Source of the DNA: a virus
Strand: one strand, 5' to 3'
IMG/VR virus record: IMGVR_UViG_3300046499_000519
Location: 1-24,933 of that record
Length of the DNA: 24,933 bases
The number at the start of each line of letters is the position of its first letter. Position 1 is the stretch's first letter. A program made the translations under genes and the position numbers. Of this stretch, positions 943 to 23,401 are shown one piece after another. The notes beneath the pieces are model-generated. The model saw only the letters and a program-made list of their open reading frames with translations. It was not told the DNA's origin and made no database searches.

Positions 943-3876
943 TTGACTGTTCCCACCGGATTCCCTCTCGACGACGGCCCCCTGATCGGCACCTGGCCGC
1001 GCCTGCTGTTCCAGATCGCGTGGAACGCGGGCGGCAACAGCACGGCGCCGAACCACTGGTACACCGTGTCCAAGCGGCTCCGTGGCCCCTGGAAGGCAAC
1101 GCTGGCCGGGCGGCAGTACGAGCTGGACACCGTCACCAGCGGGGGCGCCTCGTTCGTCCTGGACAACCTCGACGGCGCGTTCGACCCCGACAACGCGAGC
1201 AGCTTCTTCTACCCCTACGTGCTGCCCTACCGGCGGGCCCGGATCGCCGCGCAGACCGGCCCGTCACGCAACCTGCTGTACTTCTGGGTCGGCGACGGAT
1301 CGCAGCTGACGTCGATGGCCGCGTCGACCGGCACGCCCGGCCTGGCGACCGGCCTGCCCGCGTCGGTGTCCGGGCTGACCACGGCCCAGACCTGGGCCCT
1401 GCCCAACGGCACAGCCAGCAACGCCGCGTTCGGGCTGATCGGGGCGACGCAGGACTGGACGGCCCTCGACTGCGAGGGCACCACGGTCACCCCCGGGGCC
1501 GCGTACTCGGCCGGAGTCGACCTCCAGCTCGCCGCAGGCGGCATGACGTCCCTGTCCATGCGTCTGCGCCTGCAGTTCTTCTCCCTGACGGGCACGTCGA
1601 TCAGCACGTCCGTGTCGTCGACCGTGGGCATCACCACGTCCTCGGTCCGGCTCACGGCCTCCGGGACCGCGCCCTCGAACGCCGCGTTCGCCGTGCTCAG
1701 CGTCGTCACCCAGGCCGCGACCACCTCGGCCACCACCGTGCGGGCCACCGCCTGGCAGCTGGAGCAGGCGGCCGCGCCGACCGGCTGGGTGTCGGCCGGC
1801 GGCTGGTTCCAGATCTGGCAGGGGTTCGTCGAGCGGTGGCCGCAGTCCTACGACAAGAACGGCAAATACGGGCTGGCTGATGTCGTCTGCGTCGACTCCC
1901 TCGCCCCTCTGTCCCAGCTCACCTACTCCGACGTCATGCCGGGCTGGCTGTCCCAGACCCAGTCGGCCAGCCTGCAGTGCGCCTACGATCTCGCCGCCCT
2001 CGGCACCAGCCCGGACGTCCCGGGCGGCCGCGCGTTCCTGCCCTACGCCGGCAGCCAGGTGGGCAGCGGGGGCCTGGACGTCGTCGGCGCGAACATCGTC
2101 ACCGGTACGTCCATCACCTCGACGACCGACCTGGGCACCCTGTGGGGGGTCCCGGGCCCGGTGACGACCCTGGCCAACAACCAGGCCGCGAGCCTCGGCA
2201 ACGCGGCCGGCGCGACCTACCTGCAGCCCTGGGACGGCGTCGACCACCTCATGCTCCCCAACGGCGGATGGACGCGCCTCATCTGCTTCCGCACCACCAA
2301 CGTGCCCGGCACCGGGGGCCGGTTCTCCGTCGCCACCGTGTGGAGCGCAACCGGCGGCGGCTACATCACCGGCAGCGGCAACCAGTCCTGCGCGAACGTC
2401 GAACTCGTGGGCAACGGCATCACGTTCAAGCTGCAGAACGCGGCCAACACCGCGGGCACCTGGACCATCATCACGGAGGTCCCCGTCACGGACGGGGACT
2501 GGCACTGCGCCGTCATGTCCCTGTCCTCCGACGGCAAGACGTGCAACTTCACCATCGACGGCCACCCGGCGACGATCACCTCCGGCACCAGCATGGCCTC
2601 GTCGACCTACACGATGGACGTGATCGGCGGCACGGTCACCAGCAACGGCGAGAACACCGCCAGCTTCAACGGGGACATCGCCTACTTCGCGCAGTGGAAC
2701 GCCGACATCGGCCTCAGTGCAGCCAGCGACCTGTCCCGCGGTTTCGCACGCGGCTGGTCGGGCGACAGCATCACCGACCGCATCACCCGCCTGCTCAACC
2801 TGGCCCACTTCCATCCCGGCTCCGGCGTCTCCTTCGCGTCGACCGGCACGCAGGGCACCACCGGCGCGATCTCCCTGAACGGCCGCTCCGCCCTGGACGC
2901 CATCCAAAGCGCGGCGGACACCGAGAACGGGCAGTTCGCCGTCAACGGCTTCGGGACGCCGCGACTGTTCGGGCACCTGTGGCGGTGGATCCAGAACACA
3001 CCCGTCGCCGTCTTCGGCGAGAACGCGGCGGGCGGCGAGATCCCGGTCCGGGACGACATCAAATTCGAGCAGGACCCGGCCCACCTCTACAACGACGTCC
3101 AGATCACCGTCGAGGGAGCTGCCGACGCCACCGACCAGACCCGGCTACAGGAGTCGTCCGACAGCACCTCGCAGACCGCCTACTTCCCGCAGACCCTGAC
3201 CCGCACCATCAACCCGGTGGCCGCGCAGACCGGCAAGGACATGGCCGACTACCTGCTCAGCCTCTACAAGGACCCGCACACCCGCCTGCAGGGACTCACC
3301 GTCGACCTCGCCCACAGCGTGGCCCTGCAGCGCGCCACGCTGGGCCTGCGCTTCGCCGACCTGGTACGCGTCGTGAAACGGCCCGCCCTCGCCCCGGCCA
3401 AAACGATGGACGGCTTCATCGAGCAGATCGAATGGTCGGGCGACGACACCGGCGCCGTCCTGCAACTGCGCCTGCAGATCTCCCCCGCCTCCCAGTACCG
3501 GTACTGGATCATCTCCGCCGCCTGGGCCGCGCTGACGACGTCGCCGTCCGCCGGCGTCAGCACCATCACCGTCGGACCGATCTCCGGCAACAACGCGATT
3601 GCCGCGCAGGCGGTCATCCCCGCCGGATTCACCATGACCCTCGGCTACGGCACCGCCAACACGGAGACCGTCACCGTGCAGTCCGTGCAGACCGTCAGCC
3701 CCGGCTACAGCACCGTGCAGCTCACCCTCACCGCGCCCACCACCAAGAGCCACACCGCGGGCGACGTGATCTGTTCGCCGCTGCCCGGCGTGACCCTGCC
3801 GCCCGGCGGCACCTATCCCACCTGCTTCGACACCCCGGCGATGTTCGGCGGGACCAGCCCCTTGTTCGGATTCTGA
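943..3876 (+). CDS. Large tail protein (hub/receptor-type) with a LamG-like insertion
   Basis: I chose the TTG at 943 because AGGGGG at 931-936 lies six bases upstream and no ATG or GTG fits better; this gives 977 residues. The N-terminus carries the pattern RQYELDTVTSGGASFVLDN followed by DGAFDPDN (about residues 58-90), typical of actinophage minor tail proteins placed after the tape measure. About residues 425-590 form a beta-rich segment (GGWTRLICFRTT, DGDWHCAVMSLSSDGKTCNF, FNGDIAYFAQWN) that resembles a LamG/concanavalin-like carbohydrate-binding fold. About 610-860 resembles the conserved tail-hub part, and the C-terminus is Thr/Ser/Gly-rich. The likely role is tail-tip structure and receptor contact. 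The tail assignment is firm; the carbohydrate-binding role is inference. Confidence 0.8.
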   Translation: MTVPTGFPLDDGPLIGTWPRLLFQIAWNAGGNSTAPNHWYTVSKRLRGPWKATLAGRQYELDTVTSGGASFVLDNLDGAFDPDNASSFFYPYVLPYRRARIAAQTGPSRNLLYFWVGDGSQLTSMAASTGTPGLATGLPASVSGLTTAQTWALPNGTASNAAFGLIGATQDWTALDCEGTTVTPGAAYSAGVDLQLAAGGMTSLSMRLRLQFFSLTGTSISTSVSSTVGITTSSVRLTASGTAPSNAAFAVLSVVTQAATTSATTVRATAWQLEQAAAPTGWVSAGGWFQIWQGFVERWPQSYDKNGKYGLADVVCVDSLAPLSQLTYSDVMPGWLSQTQSASLQCAYDLAALGTSPDVPGGRAFLPYAGSQVGSGGLDVVGANIVTGTSITSTTDLGTLWGVPGPVTTLANNQAASLGNAAGATYLQPWDGVDHLMLPNGGWTRLICFRTTNVPGTGGRFSVATVWSATGGGYITGSGNQSCANVELVGNGITFKLQNAANTAGTWTIITEVPVTDGDWHCAVMSLSSDGKTCNFTIDGHPATITSGTSMASSTYTMDVIGGTVTSNGENTASFNGDIAYFAQWNADIGLSAASDLSRGFARGWSGDSITDRITRLLNLAHFHPGSGVSFASTGTQGTTGAISLNGRSALDAIQSAADTENGQFAVNGFGTPRLFGHLWRWIQNTPVAVFGENAAGGEIPVRDDIKFEQDPAHLYNDVQITVEGAADATDQTRLQESSDSTSQTAYFPQTLTRTINPVAAQTGKDMADYLLSLYKDPHTRLQGLTVDLAHSVALQRATLGLRFADLVRVVKRPALAPAKTMDGFIEQIEWSGDDTGAVLQLRLQISPASQYRYWIISAAWAALTTSPSAGVSTITVGPISGNNAIAAQAVIPAGFTMTLGYGTANTETVTVQSVQTVSPGYSTVQLTLTAPTTKSHTAGDVICSPLPGVTLPPGGTYPTCFDTPAMFGGTSPLFGF

Positions 3877-3887
3877 CCGGAGGCCCC

Positions 3888-4451
3888 GTGACCACTCGAC
3901 CCACCCTCACCCAGGCCACACCGGGATTCCCGGCCTCCGACGCCTGGTGGAAAGCGCAGGTCTACGACCCGCTCACCTACCTGTACGGGCAACTGCCCAT
4001 CGAGGTCTACAAGCAGAACGACTTTCTGATGACCTCGGTGACCACGGTCGCCTCCGACCCCGAGCTGCAGTGCACGCTCGCCGCGAACTCGGTGTACCGC
4101 GTCGAGTTCTTCCTCCACTACGCCGCCATCGACGCCGCGCGGATCAAAACCCAGTGGCTGGTGCCTTCCGGCGCGACCGGGTTCCGGTCGGCCCTGGGCC
4201 CCGACCAGGGCGTCATCCTCTCCAGCACCTCCTCCGGCGGCACCGGCCGCTGGGGTGTCCACGGCTTCACCACCGCCTGCACCTACGGCACCCGCGACTC
4301 GAACGCAAACCAGTGCGTGGCCATCGAGGAAGGCGTGGTGACCACCACGACCGGCGGCACCCTCGCCATCCAGGCCGCACAGGTCACGTCCTCGGCCACC
4401 TCCAGCAAGATCTCCAGCGGCTCGTACATGCGCGTCAAGCTGCTCTCGTAG
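3888..4451 (+). CDS. Minor tail / tip protein, beta-sandwich type
   Basis: GTG at 3888 is preceded by CCGGAGG at 3877-3883, 11 bases after the previous stop; the product is 187 residues. The first 55 residues look helical (DAWWKAQVYDPLTYLYGQLP). The remainder is Thr/Ser/Gly-rich with regular beta-strand patterning (SVYRVEFFLHYAAI, KTQWLVPSGATGF, GGTLAIQAAQVTSS), ending in SGSYMRVKLLS. This layout is common in small minor tail proteins of actinophages just downstream of the hub gene. I see no enzymatic motif. It is the last clear structural gene before the lysis region. Confidence 0.6.
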   Translation: MTTRPTLTQATPGFPASDAWWKAQVYDPLTYLYGQLPIEVYKQNDFLMTSVTTVASDPELQCTLAANSVYRVEFFLHYAAIDAARIKTQWLVPSGATGFRSALGPDQGVILSSTSSGGTGRWGVHGFTTACTYGTRDSNANQCVAIEEGVVTTTTGGTLAIQAAQVTSSATSSKISSGSYMRVKLLS

Positions 4452-7859: not shown

Positions 7860-7895
7860 GAGCCCCCAGCTCAGATCGCTCTGAGCTGGGGGCTC
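7860..7895. terminator. Bidirectional terminator next to the tRNA-derived att core
   Basis: A 16-bp perfect stem: 7860-7875 pairs with 7880-7895 around TCGC. Read leftward, the hairpin is followed by CACTCGTTTTTCGG, a real T-tract, so it works best for leftward transcripts such as a tRNA-Lys transcript. Read rightward it is followed by TTCGGT. It lies six bases beyond the tRNA 3' end. Confidence 0.8.
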
Positions 7896-7900
7896 TTCGG

Positions 7901-7945
7901 TAGACCCTGTGGGACTCGAACCCACAACCAATGGATTAAAAGTCT
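7901..7945 (-). other. attP core: 3' half of a tRNA-Lys(UUU) gene
   Basis: Read leftward, 7942-7901 runs from the anticodon loop CTTTTAA (anticodon TTT at 7940-7938) through the variable region and T-arm (GTGGG-TTCGAGT-CCCAC) to an acceptor strand AGGGTCT with discriminator A; CCG follows, so CCA is not encoded. The 5' side of the anticodon stem mismatches after two pairs, and no D-arm or 5' acceptor strand lies at 7946-8000. It is therefore a 3' fragment, not a working tRNA gene. Tyrosine-integrase elements use such fragments as attP so that integration rebuilds the host tRNA. The integrase gene is 220 bases away. Confidence 0.82.
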
Positions 7946-8164: not shown

Positions 8165-9844
8165 CTACGCCGGACCCTGCCCGTTGTCAGTGCCCGCGTC
8201 TACCGTGGATCCATCACCATCCGCGTCTGCTGGCTGCGACGCTCCAGGCCCCGCCACCGGGACAGCGACCGGGGACGGGGCCTCGTCGCGCGGCCGCCTC
8301 GCCCGCGGCACGGCGGCAGCAGCCGCCTCGGCGAGCTCGTCCTCGTACTCCTCGAACAACTCCATGTACGTGTCGGCTGTCAGGACGATGGTGGAGTGCC
8401 GGAGCTTCTTGCTCGCGTCGTGGATGTCGCCTCCACCTGCCTTCACCAGGGCGGCCGCGCCGTGGCGCAGATCGCGGAGGTTGATGGGCGGCAGGCCGGC
8501 CGCGTCCGAGATCCGGCGGAACGCCTTGGACACGACGTCCGGGTGCAGCCAGCTCCCGTCCTCCGCGGTGAACATCTTCCCGGTGTCCGTCCAGTCCGCA
8601 ACGTCCTCGCCTGCCTCACGCTGCTCGGCCGCCCTGGCGGTCCACTCCTCGCGCTCCCGCTGCTGCCGCTCGCGGTGCTGGAGCAGGACGCGCACGGTGC
8701 CCGCGTCGAGCTTCACCACGCCGGCCGATCCGTCCGTCTTGGGCGCCGTCTCGATCGGCGTCCACCCGTCGACCACGATCTCGGCCGCCACCGTGATCGT
8801 CTTCCGTGCCGGGGAGAAGTCTGACCAGCCCTGCCCGACACCCTCGCCGCGGCGCAGTCCGTGATGGGAGATCAGGTGGAAGAACGCGTACAGCCGGTCC
8901 GATTCGGCCGCGTCGAGGAACGCGCCCAGCTGCGCTGGCGTCCACACCATGACCGGGCCCGGCTTCACGCCGGTCTCCTGCCAGCGCGTCACCCGCTCGT
9001 CAGTCCACAGCATGCCCTTGGGGCGAGAGGCGGCAGCCAGCTCGACGTGGGCGGCCGCGTTGAAGGTGATGAGCTGCTTCTTCATCGCCTTGTTCAGGGC
9101 CATGCGGAGAGTGCGGCGGATGGCCTGCTTGGTGGCCGGGCCGGTGATGCGGCGGAAGGGCGGCATCTCGGCGAGCTTGGCCCGTTCCTTCGCAAGCTGG
9201 GCACGCTCGGCCGCCTTGGGCGCTCCGGGCCTGCCTCGCGTGCAGCGTTCGGTCTGCTCGCGGCGGGCGGCGTTCTCGGCGCGGATCACATCATTGCGGT
9301 CCTCGATGGCCGCGAACATGTCCTCAAGGTGGCCGACGCCCAGCCGGTCCAGGCGCAGGTGCCCGATGGCTGGCTTGAGGTGGACGCGGATATGGCTGTC
9401 GTAGCCATGGTTCGTGGTGACCCGAGTCGCCTTGGCGGCCATGACCTGGTCAAGCCAGTCACCCACGGTCGTGCGCCCATCGAGGGGGACGCCGACGCCG
9501 AGCTTGCGGGACACCTCGGTCGGGTCGGGGATGTCGCCGCGGGTCTTCATGAGTCCGGCGAGCAGGTCGCCGACCCGGCGCTGTCCGTCCTCGTCGTCGC
9601 CGGGCAGGTCGAGGATGGCGCGGATGCGGTCGAGGTCGGTCTGCGCGTCGGCGACTTTGAGGTAGCCAGTGCGACGGAAACGCCGACGCTTGCCCTCACT
9701 GTCGGGCGGGAGTTCCTGATGCAGTTCGTGGTTGCCGTGGCTGCGCTTGGACAGTTGCGGGCACTTCACGCCGAGCCGCTTACCCGCTGTGTCACGGCAC
9801 TCGCAGCGTTTCGTGATGCCGCCAGCGCGGCGAGAAACCGGCAT
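8165..9844 (-). CDS. int: Tyrosine-recombinase integrase
   Basis: I chose the ATG at 9844 (559 residues): GGAG lies seven bases upstream and this start leaves a 13-base gap to the repressor gene, whereas the longer frame from 9922 would overlap it by 65 bases. Residues 14-39 (C14, C16, C28, H36, H39) form a zinc-ribbon-like N-terminus. About 125-190 is a core-binding domain. The catalytic domain shows HHGLRRGE (Arg331), a PKTDG hairpin (Lys369), NLRDLRHG with Arg460, KLRHS (His483) and the nucleophile in TADTYMELF (Tyr493). The HxxR box reads RDLR, with Arg457 in the usual His place. A charged Arg/Glu insert follows the core-binding domain, and an Ala/Pro-rich tail ends the protein. The attP core lies just downstream. 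It should carry out integration into a tRNA-Lys gene, and excision together with the product of 10958. Confidence 0.93.
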   Translation of the reverse strand: MPVSRRAGGITKRCECRDTAGKRLGVKCPQLSKRSHGNHELHQELPPDSEGKRRRFRRTGYLKVADAQTDLDRIRAILDLPGDDEDGQRRVGDLLAGLMKTRGDIPDPTEVSRKLGVGVPLDGRTTVGDWLDQVMAAKATRVTTNHGYDSHIRVHLKPAIGHLRLDRLGVGHLEDMFAAIEDRNDVIRAENAARREQTERCTRGRPGAPKAAERAQLAKERAKLAEMPPFRRITGPATKQAIRRTLRMALNKAMKKQLITFNAAAHVELAAASRPKGMLWTDERVTRWQETGVKPGPVMVWTPAQLGAFLDAAESDRLYAFFHLISHHGLRRGEGVGQGWSDFSPARKTITVAAEIVVDGWTPIETAPKTDGSAGVVKLDAGTVRVLLQHRERQQREREEWTARAAEQREAGEDVADWTDTGKMFTAEDGSWLHPDVVSKAFRRISDAAGLPPINLRDLRHGAAALVKAGGGDIHDASKKLRHSTIVLTADTYMELFEEYEDELAEAAAAAVPRARRPRDEAPSPVAVPVAGPGASQPADADGDGSTVDAGTDNGQGPA

Positions 9845-9857
9845 TGCTTCACTCCAC

Positions 9858-10616
9858 TCAGAACGGGGGTTCGTCCGGCCAGTCTTGCTTACCAGGGCTC
9901 GATTTATGCGAGGCGTCCTCATGGCCCTCGACCCCCAGCCGATGCAAGACCTCTTTCTTCATGTCTTGCATGATTCCATCAACGGTCTTTCTGATCTCGT
10001 CTGGCGTGATAGTGAAGGTGATTTCCTTCTCGCCCTGCTGCACGACGAGTTGTTTCTCACCGTGCTGCTCAGCGAGGTAGTCGTCGTACTCGTCCTCTCG
10101 ATCCCACCGCTCGACGCGCGCGCTTGGGTCCCATGTCAGCCCCAGCGTCTTGAGGTGCACGTTAACGGCTTCCACCAGCGACGGAGGATACCGAAGAGGG
10201 AAAGCAGCAGAGAGGAGACCTTTCATCTCAACAACCGCAGCAGAGGGCGTGAACTGATCGGTCTCTTTCGTCATCCTGTACTTCGCCACACCGCGATCCG
10301 CAGGCAACGGAAGGAAGAAGTACGAGATCGGCTGAGAGAAAACCAGGGAAAACGCAAGCAGTTCATTTGCGTTGAACTCTCGGGATCGCCCCGTCTGCCA
10401 CGACCGTTCAGAAGCGCTGAGCGTCGCCGCCGTCCACGGCTTACCGCTTACCTCTTGCAGCCGTGCGGCTGTTTCTTCCTGAGTCCAGCCAGCGGACCGT
10501 CGCGCCCTCGCGAGGTTGTAAGCGACCACTTGGTTGACCGTGAGGAGTCGGCGGGTCGGGGCCCCAGAGGGATCATCCGCTGTCTCGTCGCTCTCCAGCC
10601 CAGGTGTATCTGACAT
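9858..10616 (-). CDS. XRE-family repressor ending in an SSB-like DEPPF tip
   Basis: ATG at 10616 is chosen because a TACACT -10 box (10629-10624) ends seven bases before it, the spacing of leaderless Streptomyces transcripts; 252 residues. Residues about 27-95 are an XRE-type helix-turn-helix (VNQVVAYNLARARRSAGWTQ, then EETAARLQ and LSASERSW), followed by SQPISYFFLPLP. The middle (about 110-185) has no family I recognise, and residues about 190-235 are charged and helical. The last residues are DWPDEPPF, almost the same as the SDEPPF end of the phage SSB at 17024. Divergent from a Cro-like gene and upstream of int, it is the best candidate for the immunity repressor. The role of the DEPPF end is unknown. 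Confidence 0.78.
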   Translation of the reverse strand: MSDTPGLESDETADDPSGAPTRRLLTVNQVVAYNLARARRSAGWTQEETAARLQEVSGKPWTAATLSASERSWQTGRSREFNANELLAFSLVFSQPISYFFLPLPADRGVAKYRMTKETDQFTPSAAVVEMKGLLSAAFPLRYPPSLVEAVNVHLKTLGLTWDPSARVERWDREDEYDDYLAEQHGEKQLVVQQGEKEITFTITPDEIRKTVDGIMQDMKKEVLHRLGVEGHEDASHKSSPGKQDWPDEPPF

Positions 10617-10623
10617 AGCCCCG

Positions 10624-10645
10624 AGTGTAGGCCGTCGGTCTACAC
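10624..10645 (-). promoter_or_regulatory. Repressor promoter (-10) and overlapping operator
   Basis: GTGTAG (10625-10630) and CTACAC (10640-10645) form a perfect inverted repeat with a 9-base spacer. Read leftward, TACACT at 10629-10624 is a good -10 box lying within one arm, seven bases from the repressor ATG. Binding here would block the box, as expected for autoregulation. No convincing -35 box is visible. Confidence 0.6.
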
Positions 10646-10718: not shown

Positions 10719-10961
10719 GTGACAACTGAACGCACACCGGTGCGCAGTAGTCCCCCGATTCGCGCTGTCCGCGCCGCTCGGGGACTCTCACTGCGGACCG
10801 TAGCCCAACGCTCGGGCATCGACCCGGGCCACTTGTCCAAGGTCGAACGAGGCGAGAAGTACCTCTCCGTCGAGGCCCTCTACCGCCTTGCTGTCGTGCT
10901 GGATCTCCGGGAGCTCTCCCAGCTCCTCAAGCCGTACATCAGTCAGCGGGAGTCGGCATGA
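10719..10961 (+). CDS. Cro-like XRE helix-turn-helix protein
   Basis: GTG at 10719 has no ribosome site, so a leaderless start is possible (TTGCGC at 10683-10688, 18 bases, CACTCT at 10707-10712 is a weak promoter match). The product has 80 residues, nearly all HTH: IRAVRAARGLSLRTVAQRSG, IDPGHLSKVERGEKYLS, VEALYRLAVVLDL. It is divergent from the repressor and overlaps the excisionase-like gene by 4 bases. It probably acts as the lytic regulator opposing the repressor and opens the early operon. Confidence 0.75.
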   Translation: MTTERTPVRSSPPIRAVRAARGLSLRTVAQRSGIDPGHLSKVERGEKYLSVEALYRLAVVLDLRELSQLLKPYISQRESA

Positions 10962-11260
10962 CCGACCCCACCGCAGCCCGCCGCAAGACCCTCACGGTCG
11001 CCGAGGCCATCGCCCTGCCCGTGATGTTCGACGTCTGGCCCACCCTCGGCGCCGCACTCGACATCGGCCGCACCGCCACCTACCAGCTCGCCCGCGAAGA
11101 GGCGCTGCCGATCCCCGTCATCCGGGTCGGCCGGCAGCTCCGCGCCAGGCGCAGCGACCTCCTGAAATTCCTCGGCATCCGCGAGGAGAACGGCGACGGC
11201 GCCGGGGGTCCAGCCCCGACGCCGCTTGCCGAGCGCGCCACCGCAACCACTTGCAAGTAG
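10958..11260 (+). CDS. Excisionase-like (AlpA/Xis) helix-turn-helix protein
   Basis: ATG at 10958 overlaps the Cro-like stop (ATGA); 100 residues. Residues about 28-72 (WPTLGAALDIGRTATYQLAR, then PIPVIRVGRQLRARRSDLLK and FLGI) fit the MerR/excisionase-type winged HTH with the R-V-G-R wing seen in Xis proteins of Streptomyces integrative elements. The C-terminus is Ala/Pro-rich and probably loose. Coupling to the lytic regulator gene means it would be made on induction, which suits a recombination directionality factor for the int at 8165. It could instead be a plain transcription factor. Confidence 0.7.
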   Translation: MTDPTAARRKTLTVAEAIALPVMFDVWPTLGAALDIGRTATYQLAREEALPIPVIRVGRQLRARRSDLLKFLGIREENGDGAGGPAPTPLAERATATTCK

Positions 11261-17023: not shown

Positions 17024-17533
17024 ATGGCAGGCGAGACCGTCATCACCGTCGTCGGCAATCTGGTCGATGATCCCGAACTCCGCTTCACCCCGGCCGGCGC
17101 CGCCGTCGCCAAGTTCCGTATCGCCTCCACCCCGCGAGTCTTCGACAAGCAGACCAGCGAGTGGAAGGACGGCGACAGCCTGTTCCTCACCTGCTCGGTG
17201 TGGCGACAGGCCGCCGAGAACGTTGCTGAGTCCCTCGCCAAGGGCGTCCGCGTCATCGTGCAGGGCCGGTTGAAGCAGCGGTCTTACGAGGACGGCCAGG
17301 GCGTGAAGCGGACCGTGTACGAGATCGACGTCGACGAGGTCGGCCCGACCCTCGCGCGGGCCACCGCCAAGGTCACCAAGAACCCGAGCAGCGGCGGGCA
17401 GGCAGGTGTTCCAAATGGAACACCTGGTGGACAGAGCGTCACTGGCCAGCAGCAGGGTGGCGGTTGGGGCGCCCCGGCCGGCCAGCAGCAGACCGGGCAC
17501 AGCGCCGGGTACAGCGACGAGCCCCCGTTCTGA
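17024..17533 (+). CDS. ssb: Single-stranded DNA-binding protein
   Basis: ATG at 17024 follows GAAGGAG; 169 residues. Residues 1-110 form the OB fold: [63 protein letters not shown]. The Gly/Gln-rich linker (about 120-160) ends in GYSDEPPF, the acidic tip that binds replication and repair proteins. It coats single-stranded DNA during phage replication and works with the primase and DUF3987 protein upstream. The length is usual for actinobacterial SSB. The same tip occurs on the repressor at 9858. Confidence 0.95.
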
Positions 17534-20741: not shown

Positions 20742-21017
20742 ATGACCGAGCGCACCGCCGCCTGGCCGGAGGGTGTCATCGCCCGCTACCTCACCGTCGC
20801 CGGTGCCCACGTCGACATCTGGTACGACACCGGCACCCTCCGCACCCGGTGCAGCGGCGAACGCTGCGCCTGGACCGTGCGCAAGTCGACCCGCGTCTTC
20901 TACACCGACTCCGTCGCGGAGCGGGACGAGAAGATCACCGCCGCCGTCCCCGCGCTCCAGCCCGACGTCCAAGCCCACGCCGAGCGCTGCCGCGCCATGC
21001 CCCGCCCCACCACCTGA
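20742..21017 (+). CDS. Small Cys-containing protein
   Basis: ATG at 20742, one base after the previous stop, with GGAGG at 20731-20735; 91 residues. It has TRCSGERCAWT near residue 36 and HAERCRAMP near residue 80, a C-x4-C plus H-x3-C set likely to bind zinc. This type of small protein is common in Streptomyces phages and mobile elements. Function unknown. Confidence 0.6.
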   Translation: MTERTAAWPEGVIARYLTVAGAHVDIWYDTGTLRTRCSGERCAWTVRKSTRVFYTDSVAERDEKITAAVPALQPDVQAHAERCRAMPRPTT

Positions 21018-21036
21018 CGGCTCAGGAGACCCCGAT

Positions 21037-21213
21037 ATGGCGTTCACCAGCAAAGACCCGCATACCGCAGCCGAGATCCTCAAGGTCGTCGCGCTCGGCG
21101 TCCGCATCGAGCGCCGCCAGGCCCGCGGCAAACCCGTCAAAGCCCTGGAGAACCGCGTCGAGCGCATCCGCGAGGACGCGCAGAAGCGCGAGGACGCCCG
21201 CGGACGCAAGTAG
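21037..21213 (+). CDS. Small basic helical protein
   Basis: ATG at 21037 follows AGGAGA; 58 residues. Rich in Arg, Lys and Glu, it looks like one long helix (AAEILKVVALGVRIERRQAR, LENRVERIREDAQKREDARG). Its stop TAG lies in the second GTAGCTACACCCC copy. Function unknown; a DNA- or FtsK-binding role is only a thought. Confidence 0.5.
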   Translation: MAFTSKDPHTAAEILKVVALGVRIERRQARGKPVKALENRVERIREDAQKREDARGRK

Positions 21214-21222
21214 CTACACCCC
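21210..21222. repeat. GTAGCTACACCCC, copy 2
   Basis: Identical to 18488-18500, here 77 bases before the FtsK-like start and running into the hairpin at 21221. Confidence 0.45.
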
Positions 21223-21262
21223 GGGGACGGCGTCCTACCGCCAAGCACGGCGCCGTCCCCGG
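21221..21262 (+). terminator. Hairpin upstream of the FtsK-like gene (attenuator)
   Basis: Perfect 12-bp stem, 21221-21232 (CCGGGGACGGCG) with 21251-21262, 18-base loop. There is no T-tract. It lies between the small basic protein and the FtsK-like gene, so it could limit read-through into the translocase. Confidence 0.5.
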
Positions 21263-21298
21263 GCCCGGACCGCCCAACAGAACGACCGGAGAGCCAGC

Positions 21299-23401
21299 AT
21301 GACCGACACACTGATCAAGCCGCCACAGGACGCCGACCAGGACGCCGAGGACGCACGGCAGGACGCGCCGGACGCGGTCGAAGACATCGAGGCCGTCGAC
21401 CGTCCCGACAACCCTCTCGCCGACTGGCTCACCGTCCCCGACGCGCCGATCCTGCCCGCCTGGGCTCGCAACTGGGAGTCCGTCCGTGCCAACAGCGGCG
21501 CGTTCGTGAAGGTCACCTGGTGGCACACCCGCTACCACTCCCTCCGCAGCCCCAAGTACGGCGCCAAGGTCGTCGGCTACTCCGCGCGCGGCGCCTTCCG
21601 AGGCGGACGACGCCTGTGGCCCGTCCTCGCCGCCCAGGACCACACCCGGGCGGTCAAGGCACTCGCCGCCCAATCCAAGGCCAAGCCCGAGGACGACACC
21701 GTCGCCCAGCGCTACCAGGTCGCCCACCGGGACCGCACCCTCGCCCGCCGCTGGCGCTGGGGCGCCGCGCTCGGCCTCGCGTCCGCCGCGGCCGTCGCCC
21801 TCAACTACGCCTCCCTCGGCCTCCAGCTCGCCGCCAGCTGCATGATGTGCGGCGGCCTGGCCGCCATCGGCTGGTCCGACGAGGCACAGATCCTCGACCA
21901 CGGCACCCCGCCCCTGCGCATCGCCATGGACTCCCAGCAGCTCAACGACGCCCTCCGCGCCACCGGCCTGCTCAAGCAGGGCAAGGGCGACGACGACGGA
22001 CCCAAGGTCAACTGCGTGATGGGGCCGCTCCGCGACGGCAAGGGCTGGGCAGTCGTATTCGACCTGCCCCGCGGCGGTGGCAAGACCGCCTCCGACGTCC
22101 TCGCCAAGCGGACCGCCATCGCCGCCGAGCTCAGCGTCGACGAGATCCAGGTCATCATGAGCCGCGTCCGCGCAGCTCACGGCGGCAACGCAGGCCGCGT
22201 CTCGATGTGGGTCGCCGACGACGACCCCTACCTCGCCCCGCCCACCCCGTCGCCCCTGGAGGGCATGGACGCCTTCTCCATCTGGGACCCGATCCCCTTC
22301 GGCCAGGACGCCCGCGGCAACCGTGTCACCCTGCCCATCGTCTGGCAGTCGATGTTCTTCGGAGGCCTGCCCCGGCGCGGCAAGACCTTCTCCCAGCGCC
22401 TCCTGACCGCCGCCGGCCTCCTCGACCCCTACGTCCGTCACTACGTCTGCGACTTCAAGGGCGGCCAGGACTGGATCCAGACGCGGCAAGTCGCCCACCG
22501 CCTGGTCCTCGGCGCCGAAGAGGACGCCATCCTCGCCTTCCGGGCCCTGCTGAAAGAGCTGCTCGCCGAGATGGAGCGCCGCTTCTCCATCCTGCGCGGC
22601 CTGCCCACCTCGATCTGCCCCGAGGGCAAGCTCACCCCCGAGATCGTCAAGCGCTACAACATGCCGTTCGTCCTGTTCACCGTCGACGAGCTGCAGGAAG
22701 CGTTCCTCGCCGTCGACGACCAGGAGCGCGAGGAGATCATCAACGACATGGCGCGCATCGCCCGCCGCGGCCCCGCCGCCGGGTTCATCTCCAACTACGC
22801 CTCCCAGCGCCCCGACGCCAAGTCCGTGCCCACCAAGCTCCGCGAGATCATCACCATCCGCTACTCGACGCAGGTCACCGACCAGACGTCCTCCGACATG
22901 ATCCTCGGCAAGAGCAAGGCCTCCCAGGGCGCGGACGCGTCCGTCCTCTCCGAGGAGCACAAGGGCGTCGGCGTCCTCGTCACCGGTCCGGCATCCTTCG
23001 TCACCGTGAAGGCCGACATGCTGGAGACCGCCGCCTTCAACACCATGTGCGCCAAGGGCCGCGCCCTGCGCGAAGGCTGCGGCCAGCTCACCGGCGACGC
23101 CGCCAACGACCCCAGCGTCATCGCCGAAGCCTCCGGCATCACCATCAGCCCCGTCCTGTCCGACTGCCTCGCCGTCATGCGGCACAGCCCCAAGCTCCAC
23201 ACCGTCGACCTCCTCGCCCGGCTGGAGAACCTCGACGAGGACTACGGCGACTGGGACGCCGAACGCCTCGCCAAGGAGCTGGAGGACGCCGGCGTGAAGC
23301 GCATGACCAAGCAGGTCAACATCGGCGGCAAGAACCTCGCCGGATACCGCCGCGAGGACCTCGAAGCCGCGATGCCAGCCGAGCTCCTCAACGCCCGGTA
23401 G
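21299..23401 (+). CDS. FtsK/SpoIIIE-family DNA translocase (TraB/TraSA-like)
   Basis: ATG at 21299 follows GGAG seven bases upstream; 700 residues. Residues 10-35 are an acidic Asp/Ala repeat. About 154-191 hold two membrane helices (WGAALGLASAAAVALNYASL, CMMCGGLAAIGW). The FtsK ATPase runs from about 325 to 570: Walker A GLPRRGKT (356-363), YVCDFKGGQDW, Walker B FVLFTVDE (457-464), and the ASQRPDAKSVPTKLREII motif. From about 630 a winged-helix-like end (VDLLARLENLDEDYGDWD to GYRREDL) may bind DNA. In Streptomyces plasmids and integrative elements such single proteins move double-stranded DNA between hyphae. With the SpdB-like and small membrane genes upstream this looks like a transfer module; a role inside the phage cycle is the alternative. 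Confidence 0.85.
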   Translation: MTDTLIKPPQDADQDAEDARQDAPDAVEDIEAVDRPDNPLADWLTVPDAPILPAWARNWESVRANSGAFVKVTWWHTRYHSLRSPKYGAKVVGYSARGAFRGGRRLWPVLAAQDHTRAVKALAAQSKAKPEDDTVAQRYQVAHRDRTLARRWRWGAALGLASAAAVALNYASLGLQLAASCMMCGGLAAIGWSDEAQILDHGTPPLRIAMDSQQLNDALRATGLLKQGKGDDDGPKVNCVMGPLRDGKGWAVVFDLPRGGGKTASDVLAKRTAIAAELSVDEIQVIMSRVRAAHGGNAGRVSMWVADDDPYLAPPTPSPLEGMDAFSIWDPIPFGQDARGNRVTLPIVWQSMFFGGLPRRGKTFSQRLLTAAGLLDPYVRHYVCDFKGGQDWIQTRQVAHRLVLGAEEDAILAFRALLKELLAEMERRFSILRGLPTSICPEGKLTPEIVKRYNMPFVLFTVDELQEAFLAVDDQEREEIINDMARIARRGPAAGFISNYASQRPDAKSVPTKLREIITIRYSTQVTDQTSSDMILGKSKASQGADASVLSEEHKGVGVLVTGPASFVTVKADMLETAAFNTMCAKGRALREGCGQLTGDAANDPSVIAEASGITISPVLSDCLAVMRHSPKLHTVDLLARLENLDEDYGDWDAERLAKELEDAGVKRMTKQVNIGGKNLAGYRREDLEAAMPAELLNAR

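Follow-up and report, generated by a model that had tools for sequence, protein, structure and literature searches.

Why should a phage repressor end in the same residues as a single-stranded DNA-binding protein (SSB)? The question arises in a viral stretch of 24,933 nucleotides, from a Streptomyces-type phage (IMG/VR record IMGVR_UViG_3300046499_000519, here called the window), where the XRE-type protein XRE1 ends in DWPDEPPF and the phage SSB in GYSDEPPF. Translation confirms both ends, and the five-residue DEPPF identity at the two true C-termini, which the initial annotation had pointed out, is exact. We favor, with moderate confidence, the reading that XRE1 is a C1-type repressor whose disordered tail carries a selected mimic of the SSB tip and docks on an SSB-interacting protein. 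The two proteins and the parts of XRE1 are placed as follows.

9858..10616, minus strand: XRE1, candidate C1-type lysogeny repressor, 252 aa from the ATG at 10616 (translation)
10314..10538, minus strand: helix-turn-helix (HTH) domain of XRE1, residues 27-101 (AF2 pLDDT about 69-91, PDB HTH matches)
9861..9917, minus strand: tail of XRE1, residues 234-252, predicted disordered and unconserved (pLDDT <50, C-anchored identity)
9861..9884, minus strand: SSB-type tip DWPDEPPF, the exact C-terminus of XRE1 (translation and homologue C-termini)
17024..17533, plus strand: phage SSB ending GYSDEPPF (PF00436, E 1e-30; translation)

XRE1 has a Cro/C1-type HTH fold in its AlphaFold (AF2) model, which was built from four sequences and is confident only at residues 27-101, with residues 218-252 below pLDDT 50. 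Foldseek matched this HTH to ImmR, C.AhdI, ClgR and SinR (best E 9e-3, TMt up to 0.81); the structural matches lie in the HTH alone, and outside it the model does not allow interpretation. The HTH also holds most of the invariant columns of two family alignments (A3 and A4), and one relative, L164, matches phrog_3 ‘transcriptional repressor’. XRE1 itself had no match in Pfam, NCBIfam or PHROGs, where an S24 peptidase domain of the LexA/S24 self-cleaving kind was likewise not found, and Pfam gave no match to the OB-fold SSB domain (PF00436). A profile of the XRE1 family matched no solved structure. The translation closes with ...SSPGKQDWPDEPPF before the stop codon at 9858-9860, its last residues being ...GKQDWPDEPPF, so that an acidic stretch and P-F stand at the exact C-terminus behind a linker predicted to be disordered.

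The locus around XRE1 is arranged as a lysogeny switch next to an integration module.

7900..7944, minus strand: attP core, lying outside XRE1 and downstream of the integrase (3′ half of tRNA-Lys(TTT))
8165..9844, minus strand: tyrosine integrase, directly downstream of XRE1 (PF00589; phrog_1 integrase, E 6e-37)
10625..10645, minus strand: putative operator just upstream of the XRE1 ATG, palindrome GTGTAGACCG-A-CGGCCTACAC
10719..10961, plus strand: XRE2, small divergent HTH_3 protein in Cro-like position (Pfam HTH_3)
10958..11260, plus strand: small HTH_17 or excisionase-like protein (weak Pfam HTH_17, E 6e-4, under the curated cut-off)

XRE1 is thus flanked by the tyrosine integrase, whose start was deduced from MPVSRRAGG in the window and MPASRRAGG in the relative L035, and by the divergent XRE2. 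A divergent promoter region with the putative operator separates repressor and cro-like gene, and a related GTTGAC-N5-GTCTACAG lies at the same position in relatives of XRE1. This CI/Cro-switch arrangement leads us to infer autoregulation of XRE1 as a lysogeny repressor of the C1 type. An XRE2 homologue diverges from the repressor in every relative examined, and an integrase lies downstream at each untruncated locus of the family. The rest of the window looks like a tailed phage with an amidase. Its plus strand also encodes, at 20849-23401, an FtsK/SpoIIIE-like ATPase, recognized by a weak Pfam match that does not reach the cut-off; genes of this kind are characteristic of conjugative elements in actinomycetes.

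The attP core is identical to sites in Streptomyces genomes. In one of these, G971, core copies at positions 45121 and 78944 of contig C388 enclose a repressor module, and the repressor between them still ends in EEEPPF. The same contig carries the tRNA-Lys 3′ half in four copies (35655, 40713, 45121 and 78944), which suggests that several elements have integrated in tandem at a single tRNA. In the window, a strong hairpin (GAGCCCCCAGCTCAGA tcgc TCTGAGCTGGGGGCTC) at 7861-7896 adjoins the core.

Relatives of XRE1 share an SSB-like tip more often than not, but in varying form. They were drawn from IMG/VR contigs and from 392 genomes belonging to a genus with chaplins, which we took to be Streptomyces, and a second draw of genomes from the same genus returned the same matches. 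The family set comprises 13 full-length members, the window protein and twelve relatives, of which 9/13 end in an SSB-like tip (DEPPF, EEPPF, DEEPPF, EDPPF, EDTPF, EEVPF, EPLPF or SSVPF).

Tipped: window, DWPDEPPF
Tipped: L035, SEEEPPF
Tipped: L034, EPPSSVPF
Tipped: L004, EPREPLPF
Tipped: L005, SFEDTPF
Tipped: L010, WGEEVPF
Tipped: L163, PLEDPPF
Tipped: L164 and L167, GWDEEPPF
Tip-less: L162, TDEGAT
Tip-less: L166, SEPEQE
Tip-less: L036, GKRPES
Tip-less: L037, RGQEK

The pattern is weaker in L004 and L034, whose tips are less acidic than those of real SSBs. The initial annotation had asked whether DEPPF is kept among homologues and had named variable ends lacking DxPPF as evidence against it. 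A looser SSB tip, roughly [DE][DE]xPF, is kept and the exact DxPPF is not, and the objection holds in part, since four relatives are tip-less. Because these four exist, the tip is not needed for repression; they show it to be an add-on outside the core repressor. Beyond these sources, no XRE1 homologue was found in the phage and plasmid record collections, a scan of a genome-contig collection returned a single distant HTH relative without the tip, and relatives in the other actinobacterial groups sampled were HTH-only and tip-less.

Tipped repressors adjoin either serine integrases, in convergent orientation, or the window-type tyrosine integrase, in the same direction. Next to L162 and L166 lies a tyrosine integrase of a second type, which points to exchange of their repressor 3′ ends, and L036 and L037 are tip-less beside serine integrases. 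Such exchange may move the 3′ end of the repressor together with the integrase, as a single unit.

The end of the tipped proteins is conserved where the tail before it is not. In a C-anchored alignment of eight distinct tipped sequences, F and P are present in 8/8 each, an acidic residue at -5 in 7/8 and one at -4 in 6/8, whereas columns -6 to -30 of the same eight have a mean identity of 0.08 and a maximum of 0.25. These eight were chosen for presence of the tip, and the argument accordingly rests on the contrast with the tail and on the spread of the tip over the repressor tree, where it is found in each of the two deep clades and the label changes at least three times. Shuffling within the last 30 positions reproduced two invariant terminal columns in eight homologues in 0/200,000 trials. 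Furthermore, the proline codons of the tip vary among relatives and the arrangements downstream of the repressor differ, which argues that the protein is selected, rather than the end reflecting a DNA constraint or gene overlap. Overlap with the integrase gene was rejected as the source of the tip on the same differing arrangements. The tip of XRE1 is a real and probably functional feature.

Its pattern is that of SSBs in the same elements and hosts, which end in YSDEPPF, HPEEPPF and HPEEAPF. An aromatic residue at -7 is shared as well, Y in the SSB and W in the window, L010 and L164/L167 repressors. PF ends are rare in the background, at 0/421 Streptomyces genes and about 2/519 phage genes once tip-selected genes are removed, rates that are approximate since rough gene calls recovered about half of the expected host genes. 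This rarity, with the shuffling result, bears out the earlier view that a chance match is unlikely. Some tip-bearing records (L005, L163 and the G971 prophage stretch, the last by phmmer) had no detected SSB, so a partner system with a phage SSB is not obligatory.

DEPPF ends also occur on other phage proteins. Among 80 phage loci with DEPPF before a stop, 41 encode classical SSBs, and the non-SSB proteins include other ssDNA-binding families and a helicase. One locus, L067, holds a repressor-like gene of its own.

L067, 8481-9017, plus strand: XRE protein ending AYDEPPF
L067, 9019-10128, plus strand: tyrosine integrase, almost directly after the XRE gene

The HTH-family matches of the L067 protein differ from those of XRE1, and the two are apparently unrelated, though a very distant relationship through the common HTH fold is conceivable. 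Tipped repressors may thus have arisen a second time in L067. The case is a single sequence: no independent homologue for a conservation check was found, and similarity to HTH proteins of M. abscessus phages is confined to the HTH, with the tip absent from the one that was translated.

SSB tips are so found on phage helicases too: L044 encodes a DNA helicase (2702-4384, plus strand, phrog_16) ending DDEPPF, and L099 (up to 6456, plus strand) a helicase, similar to it by eye, that ends LDDEPPF. Small and apparently different DEPPF-ending phage proteins occur in L058, L117, L080, L102, L104, L114 and L115, often with low-complexity linkers before DEPPF. Those of L058 and L117 match ssDNA-binding PHROGs, and the other five may be unrecognized SSB replacements.

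Presence of the tip in 9/13 family members and two clades, the unconserved tail before it, the match to SSBs and the recurrence in L067 fit a selected docking peptide and lend partial support to the initial annotation, in which such docking could read replication stress or hold back replication. SSB tips dock many partners (PMC4137731), and it is from this established biology that docking of the XRE1 tip is inferred. The disordered C-terminal tail would end in a selected SSB-tip mimic, whose PF carboxy-terminus and acidic residues would most likely occupy the SSB-Ct pocket of a protein that interacts with SSB, be it a host protein of the RecO, RecG or PriA class or a phage protein. Docking could in this way tie the activity of the repressor to replication or repair: with the partner abundant or engaged, the repressor might be pulled off, or the partner might itself be held back. 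Our guess is that induction or titration is favored over inhibition, given that XRE1 has no recognized cleavable S24 domain, which also makes a protein-protein induction signal plausible.

The main rival to docking is a degradation signal, a reading that the initial annotation had not raised. A ClpXP-type host protease, perhaps with an adaptor, would read the terminal xPF, turn over the repressor and set the lysis-lysogeny threshold, an explanation that we consider unlikely. The exact C-terminal position behind a disordered tail would suit a degron, other actinophage repressors carry C-terminal degrons (BPs gp33, PMC4557955), and the last three residues of Streptococcus mutans SsbA, LPF, suffice for ClpXP degradation of SsbA and of GFP (PMC5143411). 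L004 ends in exactly LPF, but it is the only XRE1 relative to do so, and in S. mutans PF alone is insufficient and L is required, in an effect that depends on the strain and is absent in E. coli (PMC5143411). Nor does a degron need acidic residues at -4 and -5, yet most tipped relatives keep them, as is typical of SSB docking. We think it quite unlikely that the end is instead a structural latch, with PF tucked into the protein's own core or a neighboring subunit to control oligomerization or DNA binding and with no SSB partner. Conserved C-terminal residues can be structural, and AF2 is poor beyond the HTH. However, the tip persists though the domain and tail that separate it from the HTH are divergent and of unequal length, its pattern matches the SSB tips of the same genomes, and the L067 repressor, with other HTH-family matches, has the same tip.

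That the tip is a coincidence, a neutral inheritance or a side effect of integrase overlap is improbable. The four tip-less relatives, two of them abutting a different tyrosine integrase, speak for it by making the 3′ end look exchangeable, but PF ends are rare in the background, PF is invariant behind a tail of about 8% identity, downstream arrangements differ and proline codons vary. Gene order (integrase, repressor, divergent cro-like gene) is as in phage BPs (PMC4557955), where the end of the repressor could be expected to be cut off on integration at an attP inside its gene. Such integration-dependent immunity is scarcely credible for XRE1: for the lineage with the tyrosine integrase, to which this applies, it is contradicted by the attP core in the tRNA-Lys 3′ half downstream of the integrase, and the G971 repressor keeps its EEEPPF end in a module flanked by core copies.

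On balance, the tip of XRE1 probably serves as a genuine docking device that would connect the repressor with proteins of DNA replication or repair. Many actinophage repressors lack a cleavable domain, and the route by which their prophages are induced is largely unclear. A repressor that carries the peptide used as a hub in replication and repair offers a direct, testable link to induction and, if the reading is true, takes SSB-tip mimicry beyond replication proteins and into transcriptional switches; the open-access literature searched yielded no previous description of an SSB tip on a repressor. More tentatively, and with doubt on our part, there may be a class of actinobacterial prophage repressors in which the SSB-tip mimic is the induction input. 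Repair or replication proteins of the host or of a superinfecting phage would capture the tail, and lysogeny would respond to stress on replication, or to a replicating phage, with no need of RecA-driven self-cleavage.

Known systems resemble XRE1 in part. The SSB C-terminus (DDDIPF in E. coli, YSDEPPF in Streptomyces) shares with it the terminal PF, the preceding acidic residues and a disordered linker, and DEPPF of XRE1 is identical to host and phage SSB ends. Unlike in SSB, the XRE1 tip appears on a predicted DNA-binding repressor rather than an OB-fold, and several relatives are less acidic. The S. mutans SsbA degron is likewise an SSB tip acting as a C-terminal signal, but it needs L at -3 and depends on the strain, whereas in XRE1 tips that position is mostly P, V or T. 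BPs gp33 is also a repressor between an integrase and a divergent cro-like gene with a functional C-terminal end; in BPs, attP lies within the repressor gene and the tag is ssrA-like, whereas in the window attP lies past the integrase, in what remains of a tRNA-Lys gene, and XRE1 has no ssrA-like end. Stl2 of SaPI2, like XRE1 on our reading the master repressor of a mobile element, is switched by, and inhibits, the recombinases Sak and Sak4, and the authors suggest that the Sak C-terminal domain engages the acidic tail of SSB (PMC5779228, PMC11846896). It is a precedent for a repressor switch that uses recombination proteins thought to engage SSB tails. Stl2 differs from XRE1 in binding Sak and Sak4 via its own loops and oligomer, with no SSB-type tip reported in the text consulted. 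Stl-type derepression by a phage recombinase or other phage protein could serve as an analogy for the mode of action of XRE1.
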